Assembly: GCA_902526175.1 (NCBI GenBank) | Contig: CABZJY010000003.1 | Location: 62,001-126,000 of the forward strand | Direction: 5' to 3' | DNA: 64,000 nucleotides | DNA from: an uncultured Alphaproteobacteria bacterium | Lineage (GTDB): Bacteria; Pseudomonadota; Alphaproteobacteria; Methylaequorales; Methylaequoraceae | Shown: piece after piece, positions 19,418 to 51,813 of the stretch | Layout: every line of letters starts with the position of its first letter | Position numbering within the stretch: position 1 is the first letter of the stretch | The notes under the pieces: model-generated | Told to the model about the DNA's origin: nothing | Database searches by the model: none | The model's input: the letters and a program-made list of their open reading frames with translations, nothing else | Program-made: the position numbers and the translations under genes

Positions 19418-20684
19418 GTGCTAGTAATGTTCCTTTATTTGTTGTAAGAAAAATCGATTTATCAGATAAGATTGGGTTTGTAATAAATTCATGATCTGTA
19501 TCAATTTGTCCTAATATCTTTCCATTAAATGGTGAGATAGAAAGTATTACTCCTTCAGAACTTGCAATTATAATTTGATTTGAAGTTAATAATGGTCCAG
19601 CCCATCTCAGTGATTTTTTTTTATTCTGAATCTTCAATTGCACAGTCCATAATATAGTACCATCGGTTAAATCTATGCAATGCAATTTATTTTCGGTATC
19701 TAGAAGGTAAATATAGTCTCCTGCAGTAATTATTGGGTTAATTGTAGAAAGTTCAATTTCCCAGATTTTCTCACCATCAGTTAAACTCATGGCTAAAAAT
19801 TTGTTAATATAACTTGATACTAGCAACTTGTCTTTATGTATTACTGGAGAGGACTGAATATCAAAGATAAGATTTCTGGTTGCAATTGTTCCTAATGCTA
19901 TATTTTCAAACCAAAGTATACTTCCACTTTGAGAATTTAATGCAAATATTTCTCCAGATGTATAAGTTACATATAAAACATTGTCTTTCAAAGACGGACT
20001 GACTCCGCCAATTATTGATACATTTTCTAAGCTTCCAGAGTGTGACCATATTTCTTGTCCACTAGATTTCTCTAATGCAATTGTCTGGTTGTCATCAGTT
20101 ACAACAAATACTTTATTAGAAAAAATCAAAGGAGGGGCAGAAACAGGACTAGAAAAATTTTTTTTCCAATTAATTTCTCGTGTACTTAAGTTAATAGAAT
20201 ATAAGTTTCCGATTCCCGATGAAACAAAAAGTGTCTCATCATTAATTCCCACGCCACCAGTAAAGAATATGTCTTCATCACTTTCCTCGCTTAATTTTTT
20301 TTCCCATATTTTTTTACCTGAAATTACATCTCTAACGCTAATTACTGAGTTTGCCAGAACACTATAAATTCTGTTTTTATAAATAATTGGTTTTGCAACA
20401 AAAAAATCACTTTTACTCCCACTGTAAGAAGCTTCTTTTTCCCATTTTATCTTTAATTTTTCATTACTTAAAAAATGAGTTAAGTTGTTTGATACATTAT
20501 GATTATGTAACGGCCAGTTTTTTAAATCTATGGGTTTTGGTAAAAAAACACTTTTCTTTGATTTAATAAGTTTTTGAGATTTTTTTTCAAATACAGCTTC
20601 ACGTTTACCTGGTAGCTTAATTTCTTCTTCATCAAAATAACTACAAGCATTTAAAAAAAATAAAGCTACAAAAAGAAATAACAT
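19410..20684 (-). CDS. bamB: Outer-membrane assembly lipoprotein BamB
   Basis: An N-terminal lipoprotein signal ends in LFFLNAC (lipidated Cys14). The remaining about 400 residues are PQQ-type beta-propeller repeats (for example ALEKSSGQEIW, ALNSQSGSILW, CIDLTDGTILW). BamB is the propeller accessory of the BAM complex that inserts outer-membrane proteins. It sits between a YfgM-like gene (6-bp gap) and der (8-bp overlap), as in many proteobacteria. Confidence 0.9.
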   Translation of the reverse strand: MLFLFVALFFLNACSYFDEEEIKLPGKREAVFEKKSQKLIKSKKSVFLPKPIDLKNWPLHNHNVSNNLTHFLSNEKLKIKWEKEASYSGSKSDFFVAKPIIYKNRIYSVLANSVISVRDVISGKKIWEKKLSEESDEDIFFTGGVGINDETLFVSSGIGNLYSINLSTREINWKKNFSSPVSAPPLIFSNKVFVVTDDNQTIALEKSSGQEIWSHSGSLENVSIIGGVSPSLKDNVLYVTYTSGEIFALNSQSGSILWFENIALGTIATRNLIFDIQSSPVIHKDKLLVSSYINKFLAMSLTDGEKIWEIELSTINPIITAGDYIYLLDTENKLHCIDLTDGTILWTVQLKIQNKKKSLRWAGPLLTSNQIIIASSEGVILSISPFNGKILGQIDTDHEFITNPILSDKSIFLTTNKGTLLALE

Positions 20685-23740: not shown

Positions 23741-24823
23741 TTATTCATCATTAATTTTTCTTATTGAGAGTTTTTTCATTTTTTCAATTAAAGTGGTTCT
23801 ATTAATCTTTAAACTATCAGCACTTTTTGTAACAGAACCGCTATTTATTTGAAGAGCAGCTTCTATTAAATTAATTTCGATTTCACTAAGATGTCTTCTT
23901 AAATCAATTTTATCCATATAGTCAAACCATTTTCTATAATGTTTTGGGTGAGGTAATTGAGAAAAATCCTCATTTTGTTTAGTTAAATTGTTATTGGATT
24001 CTTTAGTAAGCGGTAAATCTCCAGTCATGTCCCATAATCCCTCTTTCTCTTCAATTCTGTCAGGAAGACTAATTTTTATAAGATTTTCTTTTACATTATT
24101 TGATTTTATAATTGTGTTGGGAAAAATTATAGCAGCTCTCTCAATTACATTTTTTAGTTCTCTTACGTTACCTGGCCAAATATATTCTTGTAATGCCCGC
24201 ATTGCGGAAGTATCAAATTTAGGCACTAACTCTTGATTCAAAGATATTTCATTAATTATATGGTCTACTAGAATTGGTATATCTTCCTTCCTTTCAGATA
24301 ATGTTGGTATTTCAATTGGAAAGACATTTATCCTGAAAAAAAGATCCGCTCTAAATGAACCATCATCTATTTTTTTCTCTATGTTTTGATGGGTTGCGCA
24401 AACCAACCTTAAATCTAACTTAATTTCTTTTTTTCCACCAACTCTTTGAATTGACTTTGTTTCAATTGCTCTTAATAATTTTGCTTGCAAAGACATTGGC
24501 ATATCACCTATTTCATCTAGGAAAAGTGTGCCATTATTTGATAATTCGAACCTGCCCTGTCTAAGAGAGTCAGCTCCTGTAAAAGATCCCTTTTCATGAC
24601 CAAAAAGTTCAGATTCAAGAAGTTCTGATGGTATTGCTGCGCAGTTCACATTAATTAAATCACCCTCTCTTTCTGAAGAATGATGAATTGCTTGCGCAAC
24701 TACATCCTTTCCACATCCAGTCTCACCTCTTAACAAAACAGTAGAATTAGATTTTGAAACTAAGTTAACTAATTTTTTTAATTCTGTAGTTGCTTTACTA
24801 TTGCCTTTAATTATTTCTTCCAT
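23741..24823 (-). CDS. fleQ: Sigma-54 activator with HTH but no sensory domain (FleQ-like)
   Basis: The 360-aa protein starts directly with the AAA+ domain: Walker A GETGCGKD (33-40), the sigma-54 contact loop GSFTGA (79-84, Ser for the usual Ala), Walker B LFLDEIGDM and WPGNVREL. A Fis-type helix-turn-helix follows at about 318-358 (SVTKSADSLKINRTTLIEKMKKL). No receiver or other N-terminal domain exists. It is divergent from a FleT-like activator that lacks the HTH. In Rhodobacter sphaeroides a FleQ/FleT pair of this kind controls flagellar class genes, so the same role is inferred. Confidence 0.8.
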   Translation of the reverse strand: MEEIIKGNSKATTELKKLVNLVSKSNSTVLLRGETGCGKDVVAQAIHHSSEREGDLINVNCAAIPSELLESELFGHEKGSFTGADSLRQGRFELSNNGTLFLDEIGDMPMSLQAKLLRAIETKSIQRVGGKKEIKLDLRLVCATHQNIEKKIDDGSFRADLFFRINVFPIEIPTLSERKEDIPILVDHIINEISLNQELVPKFDTSAMRALQEYIWPGNVRELKNVIERAAIIFPNTIIKSNNVKENLIKISLPDRIEEKEGLWDMTGDLPLTKESNNNLTKQNEDFSQLPHPKHYRKWFDYMDKIDLRRHLSEIEINLIEAALQINSGSVTKSADSLKINRTTLIEKMKKLSIRKINDE

Positions 24824-24974: not shown

Positions 24975-24991
24975 TTGGTAACATTCTTGCT
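24975..24991 (+). promoter_or_regulatory. Sigma-54 promoter of fleT-fliE operon
   Basis: TTGGTAACATTCTTGCT has GG and GC separated by exactly 10 bp, the -24/-12 spacing required by RpoN. The -12 GC is 35 bp upstream of the fleT ATG. The preceding 100 bp hold the FleQ-like palindrome and a poly-A tract (about 24900-24914) but no gene. Confidence 0.85.
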
Positions 24992-25024: not shown

Positions 25025-26191
25025 ATGGAAGAATTATTTTTAATAAACAATGAATTTAAAAAAGAAGATTTAGAACTAATTAGAAAATTTCTAGAATTTA
25101 GAAAAATTTCATCAAATATAAAAAGTTATGATGAGATGAAAGACGAAAACGTCAATAAATCAAAGATTATTACTAACAAATTATTTGAGGAAAAGATTGG
25201 TGGTAGAGAAAAACTTATTAAATTTGGAAGAAATATTGGTTGTTCAAAAATTTTAATTTTAGAACCAAATTCTGATAAATATTCGATTCAATCACATTTA
25301 GGTGAATCTGTTTTAAATATTAGTTTTAAAAAAATAAATGATTTTATTCTTGAATTGTTGATAAATATAATTTCTCAACAAAAGTTCTCATTTGCAGATT
25401 CAAAAACATTGACTTTAATTAAATTAGCAAAAAGAGTTGCTGAAACAGACGTCACTGTTTTTGTTCACGGTCCAACAGGTACTGGAAAAGAGGTCATTTC
25501 AAATTACATACACCAAAATTCAAAAAGAAAAGATAATCCATTTATTGCCGTAAACTGTGCTGCAATACCAGAAAATATGTTAGAGGCTATGTTATTTGGT
25601 CATGAAAAAGGTGCATTTACAGGAGCATCGTCTGCAAATAAAGGAATTTTTAGAGCAGCGGATACTGGAACACTTCTTTTAGATGAGATTTCTGAAATGC
25701 CATTATCTCTTCAAGCTAAGCTTTTACGAGTTTTACAAGAGAAAAAAGTTACGCCTATTGGCGGTCAAAGAGATATAGATGTAGATGTAAGAGTAATTGC
25801 AACTACAAATAGAAACATGATGAGTGAAGTAAAAAATAAGACTTTTAGAGAAGACTTATATTACAGACTTAATGTATTTCCTATTGAAACAACAAATTTA
25901 TCAGAACGACCAGGAGATATTATACCAATAAGCCTTGCATTATTAAAACGCCATGTTGAAAGTTCTTCAAAGATTCCATTCATAAGTGAAAGTGCTCAAA
26001 AAGTGCTTACCAATTATAGCTGGCCAGGTAATGTCAGGGAACTTGAAAATGTTCTTCAAAGAGCGATTGTTTTATCAAAAGACAATATGATTACTGACTT
26101 AGATATCATGATTGATAATGACATTGAGACTCAAATTCAAAATTTAAATCATAGTGTTGAAGAAGCAAATAAAGCTGCTTTAGGTTTATAG
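25025..26191 (+). CDS. fleT: Sigma-54 activator lacking a DNA-binding domain (FleT-like)
   Basis: Residues 1-120 form a non-canonical N-terminal domain without a recognisable phosphoacceptor. The AAA+ domain follows, with Walker A GPTGTGKE (149-156), an intact GAFTGA loop (196-201), Walker B LLLDEISEM and WPGNVREL. The protein ends about 35 residues after the AAA+ part with no Fis helix-turn-helix, and the fliE ribosome-binding site begins in its stop codon, so this is not a recent frameshift. R. sphaeroides FleT has the same architecture and also precedes fliE. Confidence 0.8.
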   Translation: MEELFLINNEFKKEDLELIRKFLEFRKISSNIKSYDEMKDENVNKSKIITNKLFEEKIGGREKLIKFGRNIGCSKILILEPNSDKYSIQSHLGESVLNISFKKINDFILELLINIISQQKFSFADSKTLTLIKLAKRVAETDVTVFVHGPTGTGKEVISNYIHQNSKRKDNPFIAVNCAAIPENMLEAMLFGHEKGAFTGASSANKGIFRAADTGTLLLDEISEMPLSLQAKLLRVLQEKKVTPIGGQRDIDVDVRVIATTNRNMMSEVKNKTFREDLYYRLNVFPIETTNLSERPGDIIPISLALLKRHVESSSKIPFISESAQKVLTNYSWPGNVRELENVLQRAIVLSKDNMITDLDIMIDNDIETQIQNLNHSVEEANKAALGL

Positions 26192-39044: not shown

Positions 39045-39253
39045 AAAAAGATAATATTCTTGATTGTAAAAAATGTAAACATTTGTATGTTACATATGAT
39101 AAGTTTTATCCTTGGGGATGTAAAGCATTCGGTTTTAAATCAAAAAAATATCCTTATAATGAAGTTTACTCGATTTCTGGCATGAAATGTGCTCTATTTA
39201 GTATAAATAATAAATTTGGACAAAAAACATATAAAAAGGGAAGATTTGCATGA
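39038..39253 (+). CDS. Small four-cysteine (zinc-ribbon-like) protein
   Basis: The 71-aa protein has CKKC near the start and single cysteines at PWGCKAFGFKSKKYP and MKCALF. This layout resembles a small conserved family of unknown function with the patterns CxxC-HxYVT, GCxAFGFKSK and SGxxCxxF. A structural metal site is likely. It overlaps its neighbours on both sides (ATGA at 39250). Confidence 0.7.
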   Translation: MVKKDNILDCKKCKHLYVTYDKFYPWGCKAFGFKSKKYPYNEVYSISGMKCALFSINNKFGQKTYKKGRFA

Positions 39254-39975
39254 ATACGCAACTTAATACGATGCAAGAAAGTATCAAGATCGCTTTAGAT
39301 GCAGCGGATGCTGCAACGGATGTTACGTCTGAATACAAAAGAATGAAAAACGAATACATAAAAGCGGAGCAAAAAGTGAAAGAAATACACAAATATACGA
39401 CAATAATTTTTTCGGCTTCAATTGCAACGGCAGTTGTATCAGTTATTTTAATCGGCCTGTTATATTTTAAATCATTATCTGAACTTGAAGATATGACTAG
39501 TACTAGTAAAGAGGCACTTGTGGTTTTTGCTGAAAATGTCGAAAATGTAAATAAAGCTGTTGATAACATGAATGAAAGTTTAAACAAACACTCTGATTTA
39601 GTTAATGCAAATATTGAAATCAAAGATAAGTTAAATATGCTGATGAGTGCTATCGAAAAAAATGACAAAAATTTGATGATAAGTCTTTCAAAAGAGGTTT
39701 CAAATCTTTCAAAAGAAATTTCATCCTCTCTAAAAGCAGAGACTGGTAAACTGAATCAAAATATTCAAGAAAGCGACGTAATGACCTCTGCAAAGGTTAA
39801 TAAGGCTGTAGAAAAACTTCTTAACGATACAAATAAAAAACAAAACGCAAAACTGCTTAAAGAGCTTTCTAATAATACATCAAGTTTGACAGCGGCACTT
39901 GAAGCAATTTCTAAACAAAATAAAGTATTGGTTAAAGAAATTGTTGATCAAAAAGAAAGTATAACCTATCCTTAA
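39250..39975 (+). CDS. Membrane-anchored coiled-coil protein of unknown function
   Basis: In 241 aa, a cytoplasmic N-terminal helix of about 47 residues is followed by one span (about 49-71, TTIIFSASIATAVVSVILIGLLYF). A long heptad-rich coiled coil then runs to the C-terminus, with repeated Asn/Lys/Ser-rich helices. It lacks HAMP and chemoreceptor signalling motifs. Start overlaps the previous stop (ATGA). The location suggests a basal-body or polar accessory role, which is inference. Confidence 0.65.
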   Translation: MNTQLNTMQESIKIALDAADAATDVTSEYKRMKNEYIKAEQKVKEIHKYTTIIFSASIATAVVSVILIGLLYFKSLSELEDMTSTSKEALVVFAENVENVNKAVDNMNESLNKHSDLVNANIEIKDKLNMLMSAIEKNDKNLMISLSKEVSNLSKEISSSLKAETGKLNQNIQESDVMTSAKVNKAVEKLLNDTNKKQNAKLLKELSNNTSSLTAALEAISKQNKVLVKEIVDQKESITYP

Positions 39976-39983
39976 TTTTTAAA

Positions 39984-40766
39984 ATGGAGCAAATAAATAA
40001 GACCGAAAGTTTTCTTAAAATTGATAGTTTTGCAAGAAAAACTGTTGCTCAATCCTTATTACTAAAAGATGATGATGTTATTGTTGCTCTCGATAATAAT
40101 CTTTATTTAAAAGGTGAAAATGCACTAATTGAAGATTTAAATTTACTTAAAAAAGAAGAAAAAAAAACAATACTAACAATTTTCAGAGAAGGCAGTTTTT
40201 TTGATGTATTAGTTTCCGGTAGCCTAGGAGCTAAATTTATATCTACCAATAGTGATGAAACAAAATTAATTTCTGAAAAGTTTTCCAAAAAAGAAATTTT
40301 CGATCAAATAGATTTAAAAGAATATATTGCAATGAGGGATTTGACTCATAATTATGAAATAATATGTAAATCTAAGTCTTTGTTTGCTGGATTAATGCCA
40401 CCTATGTGGCTTGCATACCATAGTAAGTGGTGGTTAATATCTCTTTTTGCAGTTTTAAGTTTTTTACTAATTTCTACTAATTTTTGGGTTTTCCTTTTTG
40501 GTTGGGTATGTGTGAGTATTTATTGTTACATCGGTCAATTAGAACTTTTAATAAGTTTTGCACTTCTATCCGGGAAAGCGTACTCAATGATACTATGCGC
40601 AACTGATATGGATCACGCTCAAAAGATTGTGAGAGAACATAATCCCAAGGCCAAATATAAAGTTTCAAGATTAGGAGATCCTATTACATCTGATCACGAA
40701 AGTAATAGTAAAGAAGATAAAAATCTGAAAAATAAGATTTCTGATTCACAAGAAGCTTTGATATAA
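39984..40766 (+). CDS. Two-span membrane protein with possible PDZ-like and DUF2628-like parts
   Basis: Residues 10-85 alternate short strands and helices in a pattern reminiscent of a PDZ-like fold (VAQSLLLKDDDVIVALDNN, then KTILTIFREGSFFDVLV). Two or three spans follow at about 140-195 (PPMWLAYHSKWWLISLFAVL...FWVFLFGWVCVSIYC), loosely like DUF2628 proteins, and then a hydrophilic tail. Neither assignment is secure. It is co-directional with the flhB run, 8 bp after the coiled-coil gene. Confidence 0.5.
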   Translation: MEQINKTESFLKIDSFARKTVAQSLLLKDDDVIVALDNNLYLKGENALIEDLNLLKKEEKKTILTIFREGSFFDVLVSGSLGAKFISTNSDETKLISEKFSKKEIFDQIDLKEYIAMRDLTHNYEIICKSKSLFAGLMPPMWLAYHSKWWLISLFAVLSFLLISTNFWVFLFGWVCVSIYCYIGQLELLISFALLSGKAYSMILCATDMDHAQKIVREHNPKAKYKVSRLGDPITSDHESNSKEDKNLKNKISDSQEALI

Positions 40767-40800
40767 TTATAAAGTACATTATATAAACTAAGAGGTTATT

Positions 40801-41410
40801 GATGGTCGTAGCAAAAAACGAACAATATTCTGTTCAAGCAGAAACATTAATGAAAGCGGCAATTGAAGATTATCTTGAGTTAATAAAAGAAATTCAAGCT
40901 TCAAATGCAAATATGAAATTAATAAAAGCAATTAAAATTACTGTAAACGGTAAACCAAGAAGGTTAGTCGATGTCGGTGACTTAAAATCAGGTGAAAGTG
41001 AAAATCAATTAATTCTTTTAGTTTTCAATACTGATCACGTAGACCTACTCTTAGACCAGATTGCTGAGCTTCAATTTGAAACATCAGTTGATGGACAATT
41101 CATTAAAATTAATGTTCCTGATCCAAGCTATAAACAATTAATGGAAGTAGTAGACGACTTAAATAGAAAAAAAGGGAGTTGTGTTGGAAGACTTACCAAG
41201 GCTAAATCTGAAGCAACTACTAGGGCAAGAACTGCAGTTGAAAACGAGTTCATTGAGCAAGCAGTAGCATCCAGGGCTACAAAAGTTTGTGATGAATTCT
41301 TAAGTCAGTATACAGAAAAAGTCAATGAAATTACCAATGAAAAGATTCTTGAAATTTTAGGTGAAGATTATTTTAATAAATATAAAACTGAAGAATTAGA
41401 CGAATTTTAG
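40801..41410 (+). CDS. Highly divergent ribosome-recycling-factor-like protein
   Basis: The 203-aa protein follows the whole RRF layout by eye. It has an N-terminal helix ending in NANMKLIKAIKITVNG (RRF: RAxPxLLDxIxVEYYG), a strand pair ENQLILLVFNTDHVDLLLDQI (RRF: TLxVxVFDxSxxxAVEKAI), then DGQFIKINVPDPSYKQLMEVVDDL (RRF: GxxIRVPLPPLTEERRxxLIKIV) and two long helices. The invariant arginines of the RRF helix are mostly replaced (CVGRLTKAKSEA). It is therefore unlikely to be the essential Frr. It starts 34 bp after the preceding gene at the end of the flhB run. Confidence 0.55.
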
Positions 41411-43257: not shown

Positions 43258-44025
43258 TTAAGCTGCAGCTTCAATTAACGCCTGTTTCTCTTTTGGAGGA
43301 AGATTAGCAACTAGTTGATCTTGAATATTTCTTCCACTTTCGCCTCTTGAAATTAATTGTAATCCTATAATAATCATGTCTCTATAAATTTGTTCATACA
43401 AAGAATAACCTTTTAATTTGGTAACAATTGGCATAAAAATTGTGTTTGCAATCATCGCTCCATATAGAGTAGTCAATAGAGCAACCGCCATTGCAGGACC
43501 AATTGCTTTCGGATCTGCCATGTTACCAAGCATTGCAACTAACCCTACTAATGTTCCAATCATACCCATCGCAGGAGCAATATCGACCCAAGCTTGGGCA
43601 ACGCCAATCATTTTTTCGTGACGTTGTTGCATGCTTTTTAATTCTTTTTTTAACTGAACAGTTAATTTTTGCTCATCTGCACCATCTACAAGCATTTGAA
43701 GACCTCCGTCAAAAAAGGGATCAGGAGTTTCCTGCCCTTCTAATGCCATCATACCGTCTTTTCTTGCAATTCCAGCTAACTCTACTATTCTTGTAATTAG
43801 TTCATCCATTTTCTTTACTGGTGGTTTGAAAGCTTTACCCATAGCACCAAACGAACCTAAAAAAACAGGTAAAGGAGCTGTGTACATTACAGCAAAAAAA
43901 GAACCCCCAAAAACAATTAAAATCGAGGGTATATCAATATACGATCCAAGCCCACCTGCTGAAATCATTGCGCCGGCAATCATTCCTATGGTACCTAAAA
44001 AACCTATGAGAGATGCTAAATCCAT
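43258..44025 (-). CDS. motA: PomA/MotA-type flagellar stator protein
   Basis: The 255-aa, four-span stator subunit has the core AMGMIGTLVGLVAMLGNM and a cytoplasmic loop with the charged residues that contact FliG. SYIDIPSILIVFGGSFFAVMYT is PomA-like. It is the first gene of motA-motB-orf, driven by a sigma-54 promoter 46 bp upstream. Confidence 0.93.
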   Translation of the reverse strand: MDLASLIGFLGTIGMIAGAMISAGGLGSYIDIPSILIVFGGSFFAVMYTAPLPVFLGSFGAMGKAFKPPVKKMDELITRIVELAGIARKDGMMALEGQETPDPFFDGGLQMLVDGADEQKLTVQLKKELKSMQQRHEKMIGVAQAWVDIAPAMGMIGTLVGLVAMLGNMADPKAIGPAMAVALLTTLYGAMIANTIFMPIVTKLKGYSLYEQIYRDMIIIGLQLISRGESGRNIQDQLVANLPPKEKQALIEAAA

Positions 44026-44069: not shown

Positions 44070-44085
44070 TGCAACTTTGATACCA
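44070..44085 (-). promoter_or_regulatory. Sigma-54 promoter of motAB, overlapped by an inverted repeat
   Basis: On the minus strand TGGTATCAAAGTTGCA has GG-N10-GC spacing, 46 bp before the motA ATG. A perfect inverted repeat AACTTTG-ATAC-CAAAGTT (44073-44090) overlaps the -24 element, so an additional operator is possible. Confidence 0.8.
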
Positions 44086-45565: not shown

Positions 45566-47020
45566 ATGCAAATAACACAAAACCTTAAGTTAAAACAGAG
45601 TCAGTCATTAGTAATGACTCCTCAATTACAACAAGCTATAAAACTTTTACAACTAACAAATTTAGAGCTAAGTGATTTGGTTAATAAAGAATTAGAGGAA
45701 AATCCTTTTCTTGAAGACAGTAAATTTGAGGAAAATAAAGAAGTGACAGATCATGAAAATGAGACAGATAGCCTCGACGAAGAGTTTGTAAGTAAAGATT
45801 CTATGGATTCTGAAATAAAATCAGAAGCATATGACAATTGCTGGGATAAAGAATTAAACTGCAATAATAAATCACAAAATTATGAGACAATTGACCCTGG
45901 TTCAATTGCTGAGCAAACAGTTAGTGAGGAAATAACGCTTAAATCAGTTCTTACAGATCAAGCTAATTTAGAATTTGACAAAGATGAAGAAAAGTTTGTT
46001 TCAAGAGTCTTAATTGATTATATCGATTCATCCGGTTGGATGACAAAAAATTTAAAAGAAATCTCTGAAATTATTGGATGCGAAGAAAATAAGGTCCAAA
46101 CTATACTTGATAGAATGAAAGATTTTGAACCAAGTGGTGTTTTTGCTCAAAATCTCCAAGAATGTCTAACAATTCAATTAAAAGCAAAAGAACTATTTAA
46201 TGAAAAAATTAAGATATTACTTGAAAATTTTGATTTGTTAGCTGCTGGTGAGATTAAGACTATTTGTAAGCAAGGTAAACTTTCAAGAGAAGAAATTGTT
46301 GAAAATTTGGCAGTTATTAGACAAATGAACCCGAAACCAGGAAATATTTATTCAACTACTGAAAATAATATTTTTCACCCAGATGTTATTGTAAAAAGCA
46401 AAAATAATACTTGGGAAGTTGAATTAAATCAAAGTACACTTCCTAAAGTTGTAGTCAATGAAAATTATGTAAATGAATTGAACAATTTAAATTGTAGTCA
46501 GGGAGATAAAAAGTTTATTACAGAATCAATTGGATCTGCCAAATGGCTAGTAAAAGCAATTGAGCAGAGGAATATAACCACACTTAAAATTAGTAGTGAG
46601 ATTGTTCAACAGCAAAAAGAGTTTTTTGAAAAAGGGTTATCATACTTGAAACCAATGATTCTTAAAGACGTCGCAAAAAAGATCGGGATGCATGAAAGTA
46701 CAGTGAGTCGAGTCACAAGTGCAAAACTAATGCTTACACCAAGGGGTATATTTGATATGAAACATTTTTTTAGTGCATCAATTAATAGTACAGAAAAGGG
46801 TGAATCGTATTCAGCAGCCTCAGTAAGGGAAACTCTTAAAAATTTAATTTCAAGTGAACCGCTAAATCAACCTTTTAGTGATGAGGTGATTGTTTCAAAA
46901 CTTCAGAAAGAGGGAATTAACCTTGCAAGAAGAACAGTTGCTAAATACAGAGAACTTATGTGTATTCCTTCATCAGCTGAAAGAAGAAAAATAATGAAAA
47001 TTCAAAATATAAGTATTTAA
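45566..47020 (+). CDS. rpoN: RNA polymerase sigma-54 factor RpoN
   Basis: The 484-aa protein has the Gln/Leu-rich region I (LKQSQSLVMTPQLQQAIKLLQLTNLEL) that meets activators, an acidic region II, the core-binding and HTH parts (HESTVSRVTSAKLMLTPRGIFDMKHFF) and the RpoN box ARRTVAKYRE (454-463). A strong AAAGGAG precedes the ATG. Its place inside the motility island and beside sigma-54 targets suggests it mainly serves motility, though other regulons cannot be excluded. Confidence 0.96.
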   Translation: MQITQNLKLKQSQSLVMTPQLQQAIKLLQLTNLELSDLVNKELEENPFLEDSKFEENKEVTDHENETDSLDEEFVSKDSMDSEIKSEAYDNCWDKELNCNNKSQNYETIDPGSIAEQTVSEEITLKSVLTDQANLEFDKDEEKFVSRVLIDYIDSSGWMTKNLKEISEIIGCEENKVQTILDRMKDFEPSGVFAQNLQECLTIQLKAKELFNEKIKILLENFDLLAAGEIKTICKQGKLSREEIVENLAVIRQMNPKPGNIYSTTENNIFHPDVIVKSKNNTWEVELNQSTLPKVVVNENYVNELNNLNCSQGDKKFITESIGSAKWLVKAIEQRNITTLKISSEIVQQQKEFFEKGLSYLKPMILKDVAKKIGMHESTVSRVTSAKLMLTPRGIFDMKHFFSASINSTEKGESYSAASVRETLKNLISSEPLNQPFSDEVIVSKLQKEGINLARRTVAKYRELMCIPSSAERRKIMKIQNISI

Positions 47021-47942: not shown

Positions 47943-47975
47943 TCAATATTTTTGCAATTACAATGCCACTAAAAA

Positions 47976-49316
47976 CTAATTTTTAAGAATAGAACTGCTT
48001 AAAAGATTTCTTCCTATGGAAATAAAATTGTAAGGGTTAATATGTTTTTTATTAACTATAATTTCGTAATGTAAATGAGCTCCAACTGCTCTTCCAGTTG
48101 CTCCCATTTTACCAATTATTTCTCCTTCTTTAACCTCAGTACCTTTTTTAACAACAATTTTGTGAAGATGCCCATACAAAGTCTCAATACCATGTTTATG
48201 TTTAATTTTAATTGTTTTTCCAAATGATCCATTCCTTCCAGAAAATATTACAGTGCCATTCGCAGAAGCTCGAACCTCTTCTTGCCATGTACCAGCCATA
48301 TCTATACCCTTGTGCATTTGTCTAATTTTAGTTTTTGGATGAGTTCTTAACCCGTAAGGGCTTGAAACATAATAATATTGCATAGGTGGTTTAAGAGGAA
48401 GAAACACAATCGCGTCTTTTAAATTTTCTAGAAACTGAAATCTTGCTGTAACAGAATTTATTAATTCTGATTCGTTATTATTATCGAGCTCTTTTTTTAA
48501 AATTAAATCTATTTCTTTAAGATTAATATTGTCTGGACTAAGTTTTAAAGTTTTAAAAACATTTAGTAATTCCATAATTTCAAGATCAATTTTCCGAGTA
48601 AATTGTGTAATTTTTGTTTTGTTATTTCGAGGTGCTGAAAATGGAAGTACTGGTAATGTATTATAATTTCTTTTTAAAATTTCTTTTTTAATATCTCTTT
48701 CATTTAAATTTGAGCTTTGTTTTTCGGTAATAATTTTGTTGGACTGTTCAATTGGAACCATTTCAGGACTAGCTAAACTTACAAATTCGTCAAATACAGA
48801 TTCATCACTGAGAGAAACATTTGAATTAATTTCAAAATCAAATTCATTTATGATATCTTTAAAATTTGAATATTTTTCAATTGCGTAATTTTTAATTATT
48901 TCTAGATTTACAAATTCGTCTTTTCTATCTTCAATATCAACAATAACCTTTTCTTTTTTATTAATTGGATCAACTGTACTTTCAGTAACAATAGCCTGCT
49001 CTGCTAGGTTTTTTAAAACCTCAACTTCAGATTTGGTAAACTGGCTTGTTTGATTTATAGAGTTTTTGTAAAGCATTAAATGAGTAAATACATTTATTAC
49101 ACCAAAGAGTGCAAATTGTAATATTTTAAAAGCAACAAATATTGATAATAAAAAACCTGAAATATAATGCTTAATATTAAATACAACTTCAATGGGCCCC
49201 CTTTTTGTAAAAAAGAGAAATCTTCTTTCTTTAAGTATTTCTTGAAGATTTTTTGTGACATTCATTTCACCAAATCTTGGGCTGGATTTTATTTGGTCTA
49301 TAAAATTTCTTAACAT
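47976..49316 (-). CDS. M23 family peptidoglycan endopeptidase, membrane-anchored (LmdC-like)
   Basis: A cytoplasmic N-terminus and one span (about 51-80) lead to a coiled-coil region and a C-terminal peptidase M23 domain. The zinc ligands MHKGIDM and HLHYE and the YGHLHKI strand are present. Length 446 aa. Membrane-anchored M23 enzymes encoded beside bactofilins (LmdC/Csd1 type) shape the cell wall locally. It is the second gene after a sigma-54 promoter. Confidence 0.88.
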   Translation of the reverse strand: MLRNFIDQIKSSPRFGEMNVTKNLQEILKERRFLFFTKRGPIEVVFNIKHYISGFLLSIFVAFKILQFALFGVINVFTHLMLYKNSINQTSQFTKSEVEVLKNLAEQAIVTESTVDPINKKEKVIVDIEDRKDEFVNLEIIKNYAIEKYSNFKDIINEFDFEINSNVSLSDESVFDEFVSLASPEMVPIEQSNKIITEKQSSNLNERDIKKEILKRNYNTLPVLPFSAPRNNKTKITQFTRKIDLEIMELLNVFKTLKLSPDNINLKEIDLILKKELDNNNESELINSVTARFQFLENLKDAIVFLPLKPPMQYYYVSSPYGLRTHPKTKIRQMHKGIDMAGTWQEEVRASANGTVIFSGRNGSFGKTIKIKHKHGIETLYGHLHKIVVKKGTEVKEGEIIGKMGATGRAVGAHLHYEIIVNKKHINPYNFISIGRNLLSSSILKN

Positions 49317-49328
49317 GATTGTTCTCCC

Positions 49329-49877
49329 TTATTTGAGATAGAGAACTACAACTAGCATAATATTAGTTAATAATTGCATTAACATTATTAAAAGCATTAA
49401 TTTCCAGGATATCGGGTTATTTATATTAAGACTAAATTGTGGAAACTTTTCAGTGACCTTATCAAACTCAACTTTTTTATTTTGACTATCAACTGTATTT
49501 TTCAATTGATAATTTTCAAAAGATTTTTTTGATTCAGTTTTTTCTTTTTGATTTATATTAATCGTTGATTCTAAATTTTCTTCATTTTGCTTTTCAGTAT
49601 TCTCATTCAATGACTTAACATTATTAAAATTTTCAGTCTTAACTTTTGATCTATCAATTTCAGTATTTGTATTTTTTAAACCATCAGCTTTTTTTAAAAA
49701 ATTTTCACCAGTATTTTTATTTTGGGGTGTAAGGTCTTTTTGAGATTCTCTGTTGTTTTTTTTCTCAATATTTTTTTCATTTGGTTTAAAATTGTCCTGA
49801 GAAGGAGAAGCACCATCATCAATTTGTGTTCTCATTCTTTCAATTCTTTGTCTAATATCTACTACTTGTTCTGCCAT
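49329..49877 (-). CDS. Tail-anchored hydrophilic protein leading the M23-SLT operon
   Basis: Of its 182 aa, residues 1-155 are polar, Asn/Lys/Glu-rich and probably disordered after a short helical start (VVDIRQRIERMRTQI). A single C-terminal span (about 160-181, WKLMLLIMLMQLLTNIMLVVVLYL) would anchor it in the inner membrane. No family is recognised. It is the first gene after the sigma-54 promoter, 12 bp before the M23 gene, and divergent from the bactofilins. Confidence 0.65.
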   Translation of the reverse strand: MAEQVVDIRQRIERMRTQIDDGASPSQDNFKPNEKNIEKKNNRESQKDLTPQNKNTGENFLKKADGLKNTNTEIDRSKVKTENFNNVKSLNENTEKQNEENLESTININQKEKTESKKSFENYQLKNTVDSQNKKVEFDKVTEKFPQFSLNINNPISWKLMLLIMLMQLLTNIMLVVVLYLK

Positions 49878-49911
49878 AATAATTAATTAAACTTATCAAA
49901 AACGAATTCAA

Positions 49912-49927
49912 TGCATTTGTTGCGCCA
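49912..49927 (-). promoter_or_regulatory. Sigma-54 promoter of the tail-anchored protein-M23-SLT operon
   Basis: On the minus strand TGGCGCAACAAATGCA has GG-N10-GC spacing, 36 bp before the ATG, the same distance as at the fleT, fliK and fliO promoters. Confidence 0.78.
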
Positions 49928-49988
49928 AAACTAAAATTTTGATAAACTTTTTGTTTGTTATAATAACTTATTCTGATAAGGTTACAAA

Positions 49989-50396
49989 ATGTTTTCTAAA
50001 GACGATAAAGAATCTTTTAAATCTTCAGATTCCAGTGTTATTGGTACTGAGATGCAAATTAATGGAAACATAAAGTGTCAAGGTAGTCTTGTAATTAAAG
50101 GAACTGTTAAAGGTAACATCGAATGTGATGAAATTAGACTTTCGTCTGAGGGTGTATTAAAAGGTTCTATTAAATCAAAAGATTCAGAAATTTCTGGCAA
50201 ATTTGAAGGTAATATTTTTTCGGATACAATTGCTATTGGGTCAACAGCAAGTATCAAGGGAGGTATTAACTACAATAGAATGCAAGCAGAACCTGGTGCA
50301 AAACTGGAGGTTGACTTTCTTTTAGGTTTGGAAGAGAAAACAAAGGTTTCAAAAAAAACTAACTTAGCCAAGTCGTTAAAAACTATTAAAGGATAA
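49989..50396 (+). CDS. Bactofilin 1
   Basis: The 135-aa protein has a short disordered N-terminus and a right-handed beta-helix made of repeating short strands (GNIKCQGSLVIKGTVKGNIECDEIRLSSEG), the bactofilin (DUF583/CcmA) fold. Bactofilins polymerise without nucleotides on the inner membrane and position wall enzymes. First of three in tandem; a TATAAT-like hexamer is present in the gap before it. Confidence 0.9.
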   Translation: MFSKDDKESFKSSDSSVIGTEMQINGNIKCQGSLVIKGTVKGNIECDEIRLSSEGVLKGSIKSKDSEISGKFEGNIFSDTIAIGSTASIKGGINYNRMQAEPGAKLEVDFLLGLEEKTKVSKKTNLAKSLKTIKG

Positions 50397-50403
50397 ATAA
50401 ATT

Positions 50404-50790
50404 ATGTCAGAAAATCAGTCAATTATTGGTAAAGATGTACTATTCAAAGGTAAGATTACTAATTCTAAAACAATTGAAATACATGGGCGAGTTGAAGCAG
50501 ATATAAAATCTGAAAAGATTACCCTTGGTAAGACAGCAAATTATGACGGTGGAATCCAAGCTGATTTGGTTGTAATATCTGGTAAATATCAAGGAAAGTT
50601 AAAAGCTGATTCTGTCTGGTTAACAGATTCTTCAGTAATTTCCGGAGAGATAAATTATAAATCCCTTCAAATGGATAGAGGTGCGGCCTTAAATTGCAGA
50701 GTTGTTCATAATTGGGATGAGAAAAAAATCAACAAGAGAAAAGACCAGAATTTTGAAGATGAAGAAGCTGGAGGCTCAGATGAGAATTGA
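50404..50790 (+). CDS. Bactofilin 2
   Basis: This is another beta-helix protein of 128 aa (LFKGKITNSKTIEIHGRVEADIKSEKITLGKTANYDGGIQADLVVISG). It has an acidic C-terminal tail and no N-terminal extension. It lies 7 bp after bactofilin 1. Confidence 0.9.
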   Translation: MSENQSIIGKDVLFKGKITNSKTIEIHGRVEADIKSEKITLGKTANYDGGIQADLVVISGKYQGKLKADSVWLTDSSVISGEINYKSLQMDRGAALNCRVVHNWDEKKINKRKDQNFEDEEAGGSDEN

Positions 50791-50811
50791 CAATTTCAAA
50801 AAAGGTGAATC

Positions 50812-51129
50812 ATGAGTGATTTAACTTACATCAACAAAGAATTAACAATGGAAGGTACTTTGCAAGCGAAAGAAAGCCAAGTAGTGGTTGCCGGTAAGTT
50901 TAAAGGGAATATTACTGCGAAAACGGTAATCTTAGAATCAACGAGTGTTTTTGACGGGATTTTAAACGCTGAACATTTAAAGATCGAGGGTCAGGCTTCT
51001 GGTGAGGTCACTGCTGAGTTTCTTGAAATAACAGGATCTGGAAACTTTGACGGTAAGCTCAAAACCAACTCATTATCCGTTGATATGGGAGCAAAAGTTT
51101 CAGGTAATGTTGGAAGAATTACTGGTTAA
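50812..51129 (+). CDS. Bactofilin 3
   Basis: The shortest of the three (105 aa) is almost only the beta-helix core (LTMEGTLQAKESQVVVAGKFKGNITAKTVILESTSVFDG), ending SGNVGRITG. AAAGGTGA precedes the ATG. It ends the tandem set and overlaps the convergent small gene by 11 bp. Confidence 0.88.
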   Translation: MSDLTYINKELTMEGTLQAKESQVVVAGKFKGNITAKTVILESTSVFDGILNAEHLKIEGQASGEVTAEFLEITGSGNFDGKLKTNSLSVDMGAKVSGNVGRITG

Positions 51130-51420: not shown

Positions 51421-51813
51421 ATGAAACAGAATAAAAATTCAAAAACACCTCAGTTACCAGTAAAACGACCTGATAACCCTATGGTTAAAGTTTCTAAACA
51501 TAGTAACCCTTTAGATATTTCAGAAAAACTTCAACATTTTAAAAATAGGGATGAAGTAAGGAAGTTCTTGCCTGATATCCTTGGAAGAGTATTAGCAAGA
51601 GTTTGGATAGATTCAAATTTTAGAGAACAATTCTCTACAGATCCACAAAAAACTCTAGAATTTAACGGAGTAGTACTACCAGAAGATATGACTATTGAAT
51701 TCCAAAAACCTAATTCTGACAGGCCAAGAATTGTTGTTTATGAACAAAAACCTAATTCAAAATTTAAACTGAGAGTTCTTTATCTACAGTTAGTTATGAT
51801 GGCTGGAAGGTGA
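51421..51813 (+). CDS. NHLP-leader-like (nitrile hydratase alpha-like) small protein
   Basis: Residues 52-108 match the nitrile-hydratase-type leader peptide pattern of RiPP precursors and NHase alpha subunits: LARVWIDSNFREQFSTDPQK, LEFNGVVLPEDMTIEF, then RPRIVVYEQ. The NHase metal motif (CxxCSC) is absent, and the C-terminal 22 residues contain no Cys or Ser/Thr-rich core. No cyclodehydratase, LanM or radical SAM gene is nearby. It may be a stand-alone NHLP-fold protein rather than a precursor. The stop overlaps the Sel1 gene (GTGA). Confidence 0.6.
   Translation: MKQNKNSKTPQLPVKRPDNPMVKVSKHSNPLDISEKLQHFKNRDEVRKFLPDILGRVLARVWIDSNFREQFSTDPQKTLEFNGVVLPEDMTIEFQKPNSDRPRIVVYEQKPNSKFKLRVLYLQLVMMAGR

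Follow-up and report, generated by a model that had tools for sequence, protein, structure and literature searches.

A tail-anchored protein (TA), an M23 (LytM) endopeptidase and a lytic transglycosylase (SLT) are encoded co-directionally, with intergenic gaps of 12-33 bp, on the minus strand of the 64-kb window analysed here. They are divergent from a set of three bactofilin genes spanning 49989-51129 (Table 1). This layout had been proposed by a sequence-only reading of the same DNA and was confirmed by our analysis, in which all three bactofilins proved real by Pfam (PF04519, 69-77 bits against a cut-off of 27.9, E 1e-19 to 1e-21). The same reading had placed the genes inside a motility island, which is borne out by rpoN, motAB, fliFGIKLMR, flhB and two sigma-54 activators found in the window by profile search. 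Genes for FlhF and FlhG, read from sequence, lie beside flhA. Since the FlhF/FlhG families point to a polar flagellum, the flagellum of this organism is probably polar.

The window lies on a 135-kb contig from a 1.33-Mb genome (83% complete) of the marine alphaproteobacterial HIMB59 (AEGEAN-169) clade of small-genome ocean bacteria. Motility is not mentioned in the main genome paper on this clade (PMC10308909).

Table 1. Features of the locus and its surroundings, with positions in the window.
Feature	Position	Strand	Remarks
Sigma-54 activator, FlbD-like, without receiver domain	23741..24823	-	Pfam Sigma54_activat, E 9e-67
Sigma-54 activator, FlgR/FleQ-like	25025..26191	+	Pfam Sigma54_activat, E 7e-70; own sigma-54 site at 24976-24991
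motA	43258-44025	-	
Control sigma-54 site of motA	44070..44085	-	15/15 relatives
rpoN (sigma-54)	45566..47020	+	Pfam Sigma54_AID/CBD/DBD, E 1e-18 to 1e-60; convergent with SLT; synteny kept
SLT lytic transglycosylase, 217 aa	47289..47942	-	Pfam SLT, E 2e-5; candidate flagellar rod-gate enzyme
-24/-12 element of SLT, TGGCATTGTAATTGCA	47953..47968	-	In the M23-SLT gap; score 10/11
M23 (LytM) endopeptidase, LmdC-like	47976..49316	-	PF01551, E 1e-30
TA, tail-anchored protein, 182 aa	49329..49877	-	Invariant N-terminal and transmembrane ends, variable middle
-24/-12 element of TA, TGGCGCAACAAATGCA	49912..49927	-	Predicted start about 49901; kept in 20/20 relatives
Bactofilin 1	49989..50396	+	Pfam E 1e-21; BacA-like membrane-targeting N-terminus MFSKDDKES
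Bactofilin 2	50404..50790	+	Without membrane-targeting motif
Bactofilin 3	50812..51129	+	Without membrane-targeting motif

Gene order across the HIMB59 clade

We compared the locus with that of relatives in the HIMB59 clade, whose genomes are marine and come from single cells and metagenomes. The order flhB, motBA, rpoN, SLT-M23-TA, bactofilins 1-3, kch, pepC was identical in every relative whose contig spans the locus. The block as a whole is syntenic with rpoN-motAB-flhB. Synteny is equally strong for pepC and kch, two neighbours that are not flagellar, so that proximity alone does not establish a functional link and co-conservation was ruled out as proof of function.

Seven genomes in which the module appeared to be absent were checked, and flagellar rod genes were present in all seven. 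True losses were ruled out: two contigs end at breaks (G008, G020), pepC is missing as well in G004, G005, G008, G014 and G023, and in G014 (contig C6, locus L078) 10 kb of N mask the bactofilins, TA and a portion of M23. In the search results, this masked stretch also appears as a spurious open frame of 21569 aa. No convincingly aflagellate HIMB59 member was found among the relatives. Since the absences coincide with contig ends, the masked stretch or a missing pepC, and the rod genes remain, the family offers no informative negative.

Just downstream of the bactofilins (51421-51813, plus strand) lies a gene for a 130-aa protein with 67-76% identity across the HIMB59 family outside the genus. 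With a score below the cut-off (E 1e-7), it resembles the nitrile-hydratase/NHLP leader family TIGR03793, and no maturation enzymes were recognised nearby.

Sigma-54 promoter elements

A -24/-12 promoter had been read upstream of TA. Its position and its GG-N10-GC spacing proved exact, with two departures from TGGCAC-N5-TTGCW. As a lone match this site is weak and near chance, because several score-9 sites are expected by chance in 64 kb (3.8 expected, 11 found). Its conservation in the relatives shows that it is real: a GG-N10-GC element lies 26-44 bp upstream of TA in 16/16 of them (shuffles expect about none), and a hold-out check recovered it in 4/4 further single-cell genomes. The intergenic region drifts elsewhere, with TTGGC...(A/G)TGCAT retained in 16/16 relatives, and for 20 other genes of this block the relatives showed no sigma-54 site. 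Departures in the TTGC box also occur at other flagellar-locus promoters, namely ATGC at a lipoprotein gene beside flhA and GTGC at 39250. The ATGCAT variant of the TA promoter recurs in a sigma-54-like site of locus L199 (positions 19437-19496), at a gene for a predicted lipoprotein that is divergent from flhA.

One promoter had been proposed to drive TA, M23 and SLT together. This holds in part, as the TA site is conserved, but SLT is preceded by a site of its own that scores better and was found in 17/18 relatives and 4/4 hold-out genomes, often as the full consensus. Therefore, SLT probably has its own promoter and need not depend on that of TA. In the window genome itself, no sigma-54 site precedes the bactofilins. 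A near-perfect one lies 11-35 bp before bactofilin 1 in 10/20 relatives, and its carriers form two separate subclades in a tree of the 16 main relatives. A scan for sigma-70 promoters ahead of the bactofilin genes gave no credible site. By site conservation across the relatives, sigma-54 control of the module is supported.

Other sites in the island are conserved to differing degrees. The site ahead of the activator gene at 25025 is kept in 5/5 relatives, and weaker or partial sites precede o44146 (9/14) and flhB (4/8). Additionally, a three-gene run encoding unknown proteins (39250-41410, plus strand) follows a site at 39178-39193 that was found in 13/13 relatives. These are probably uncharacterised flagellar genes; the third gives a weak ribosome-recycling-factor match.

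We further scanned 1,325,946 of the 1,330,477 bases of the genome (about 99.7%) for sites with a score of at least 9 within 130 bp of a gene. Such sites precede 11/63 flagellar-locus genes and 11/1303 genes elsewhere (OR 25, p 4e-10). The flagellar genes with sites include flhA-flhF-flhG-fliA, flgB, a rod gene on contig C12, fliK, motA, the activator at 25025, TA and SLT; names follow Pfam where matched, and flgB, flhF, flhG and fliA were read from sequence. A sigma-54-like site also precedes an ammonium transporter gene, and contig C4 encodes two further NtrC-family activators, by which the promoters of the module could also be driven. Inspection by eye revealed no enhancer site common to the flagellar activators. 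Since sigma-54 serves these activators as well, it does not by itself prove a flagellar role. Nevertheless, site conservation supports the predicted membership of the module in the flagellar regulon.

Proteins of the module

The M23 protein has a short cytoplasmic N-terminus, one transmembrane segment (about 50-75), a linker and the catalytic domain, and its zinc-ligand motifs (H335, D339, H414-x-H416) are invariant in the alignment. A conserved cytoplasmic segment, KERRFL(F/Y)FTK-GPIE(I/V)VFN, stands directly before the transmembrane segment; LmdC-like proteins of other alphaproteobacteria carry FPERQI(F/Y)xRSxGxV at the equivalent place. The resemblance to LmdC is thus one of position and pattern (ER(R/Q)-x-(F/Y)..G..V), with a statistically weak profile match in the hairpin region (hhalign P 0.017). 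AlphaFold predicted a hairpin (31-37/40-46) followed by a transmembrane helix (48-86), at low local confidence (pLDDT about 45). In R. rubrum, the cytoplasmic hairpin of LmdC binds BacA and recruits LmdC to the bactofilin (PMC10945521). Wherever the contig of a relative spans the locus, one gene (TA) and the divergent promoter separate M23 from the bactofilins. This conserved adjacency, the M23 domain and the zinc-ligand motifs support the earlier assignment of a bactofilin and M23 pair of the LmdC type.

The module resembles BacA-LmdC of Hyphomonas neptunium and Rhodospirillum rubrum (PMC10945521) in pairing a bactofilin with a neighbouring bitopic M23 DD-endopeptidase that has a cytoplasmic N-terminal hairpin (a low-confidence model here), a transmembrane segment, a linker and a C-terminal LytM domain. 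The N-terminus of bactofilin 1 is of the MFSK type, as is the membrane-targeting peptide of BacA, MFSKQAKS (PMC12448750). It differs in that the genes are divergent instead of in one operon, that there are three bactofilins, that TA and SLT are added, and that the module lies in a flagellar island with conserved sigma-54 promoters. The kind of module and its enzymes are known, and the regulation and the company of TA and SLT are new.

Outside the family, bactofilin and LmdC-like genes adjoin in other alphaproteobacteria, including the apparently aflagellate G026 and G038, in which FliG was not detected at 93-97% completeness. Among gammaproteobacteria, the pair also occurs in Colwellia and Pseudoalteromonas, where flagellar genes are absent within about 10 kb. 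As it is found without detectable flagellar genes, the bactofilin-LmdC pair is not intrinsically flagellar, and the flagellar link lies only in its HIMB59 wiring.

The SLT protein has an N-terminal hydrophobic, signal-like segment and a conserved catalytic Glu. Structure comparison revealed a lysozyme-like lytic transglycosylase fold (MltF/Slt/MltC, Z 11-12.5), and the top Foldseek match was EtgA. Among solved structures there was no sequence match and, by fold, only generic lytic transglycosylases were recovered; NCBIfam gave no match. The genome has only two SLT-domain genes, this one and one of the Slt70 type. In the HIMB59 clade, FlgJ is 100-110 aa long and consists of the rod-binding domain only. 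With FlgJ devoid of a muramidase domain, the flagellum requires a lytic transglycosylase, for which SLT is the sole small candidate.

A precedent is R. sphaeroides, where FlgJ is also single-domain and SltF supplies the lytic transglycosylase (PMC7277832). SltF is a small Sec-type enzyme of the flagellar regulon in an alphaproteobacterium, and the features expected of its counterpart are present here: SLT fold, signal-like N-terminus, sigma-54 co-regulation signal and a FlgJ without muramidase. We consider it likely that SLT is the rod-gate enzyme and does the job of SltF. Unlike SltF, SLT is not in a rod operon, and its subfamily homologues are mostly outside flagellar clusters: in 20 loci inspected in other alphaproteobacteria, the neighbours were not flagellar except for rpoN in one. 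The subfamily occurs in 69/144 alphaproteobacteria and is associated with FliG (OR 7.5, p 3e-7, uncorrected for phylogeny), and 10 genomes without FliG retain it.

TA is conserved at both ends. The N-terminal motif MxE(Q/P)V(I/V)(D/N)IxxRIE(K/R)MR and the C-terminal transmembrane tail FPQFxLNxxNPISWKLMLLIMLMQLLTN.. are invariant, and mean identity across the family is 78% for residues 1-20, 88% for the C-terminal 42 residues including the transmembrane segment and 23% in between. TA gave no Pfam match above cut-off, no NCBIfam match, and no homologue at E<=0.01 in the sampled other alphaproteobacteria. By these searches, TA is specific to the HIMB59 family.

Proposed role in flagellum assembly

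Flagellum-timed wall remodelling is the likely function of the module, which would most likely act at the time and place of polar flagellum assembly. The earlier suggestion that it opens or shapes the wall at the flagellar pole is supported in part: timing with the flagellum is likely, and polar action and wall opening are proposed here. We propose, with confidence evenly balanced, that an ancestral bactofilin-LmdC wall-remodelling module was recruited by the HIMB59 family into the sigma-54 flagellar programme, where it would open the wall for the rod. The flagellar sigma-54 activators would fire the expression of TA and the LmdC-like M23 from one promoter and of SLT from its own. Bactofilin 1 would bind the inner membrane via its MFS(K/R) peptide, co-assemble with bactofilins 2 and 3, and recruit M23 through the conserved cytoplasmic beta-hairpin of the peptidase. 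TA is probably the link between this patch and a further component of the pole or basal body, via its N-terminal helix and transmembrane tail. Within the same small patch, M23 would cut cross-links and SLT glycan strands, and the patch would open or thin the wall for rod and hook, with FlgJ bringing no muramidase of its own. Somewhat more tentatively, the module may be a dedicated part of the polar flagellum, a cytoskeletal patch with TA as adaptor that positions endopeptidase and lytic transglycosylase where the rod will form; sigma-54 control would have spread to the bactofilin operon in two subclades.

The main rival is a shape module (curvature or pole geometry) that is timed by motility and takes no part in flagellum building, being expressed together with the flagellar genes to give swimming cells the shape they need. 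Bactofilin-LmdC pairs studied in alphaproteobacteria (Rhodospirillum, Hyphomonas) act in shape (PMC10945521), MreB is present in the genome, so that an elongasome to modulate exists, and the pair persists in alphaproteobacteria without detectable FliG. Against this, we found no sigma-54-controlled bactofilin shape module in the literature, the wiring extends to SLT and TA, and the muramidase-free FlgJ calls for a flagellar wall enzyme. We regard a pure shape role as possible but rather unlikely. The CcmA-Csd systems of Helicobacter and Campylobacter likewise combine a bactofilin with M23 peptidases and small membrane adaptors, to which TA can be likened by published descriptions; their role, unlike the one proposed here, is in shape.

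It is improbable that SLT alone is flagellar, as an SltF-type enzyme with its own sigma-54 promoter. TA-M23 and the bactofilins would in that case form an envelope module next to it, held in place by synteny and sharing sigma-54 for other reasons. The independent and stronger SLT site, the parallel with R. sphaeroides and the equal synteny of pepC and kch would fit; retention of the TA site in every genome examined and the bactofilin sites of the two subclades would not. Least probable are promoters that answer to NtrC/NtrX-type activators, by which the module would adjust the envelope in response to nitrogen or redox status: the activators on C4 and the ammonium transporter site agree with this, but the sites cluster in flagellar loci, and the module lies between rpoN-motAB and the bactofilins, in one island with flagellar genes and two activators.

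It is poorly understood how the rod crosses the wall in bacteria with a muramidase-free FlgJ, and also how bactofilins come to affect motility. With endopeptidase and lytic transglycosylase joined to a bactofilin scaffold in one predicted sigma-54 flagellar regulon, both questions become directly testable, and TA is predicted to be a new family-specific adaptor in a widespread ocean clade. In the Firmicute Bacillus subtilis, the bactofilins BacE and BacF are linked to flagellar hook and filament assembly, with a strain-dependent motility effect (PMC4627819, PMC9103452); the abstracts of these two reports describe no M23, SLT or TA partner and no sigma-54 control.

Transglycosylase partners may recur at LmdC loci, since in four loci of other alphaproteobacteria (L092, L095, L130, L133) the LmdC gene is close to an Slt70-like gene, with a bactofilin also there in L092 and L095.
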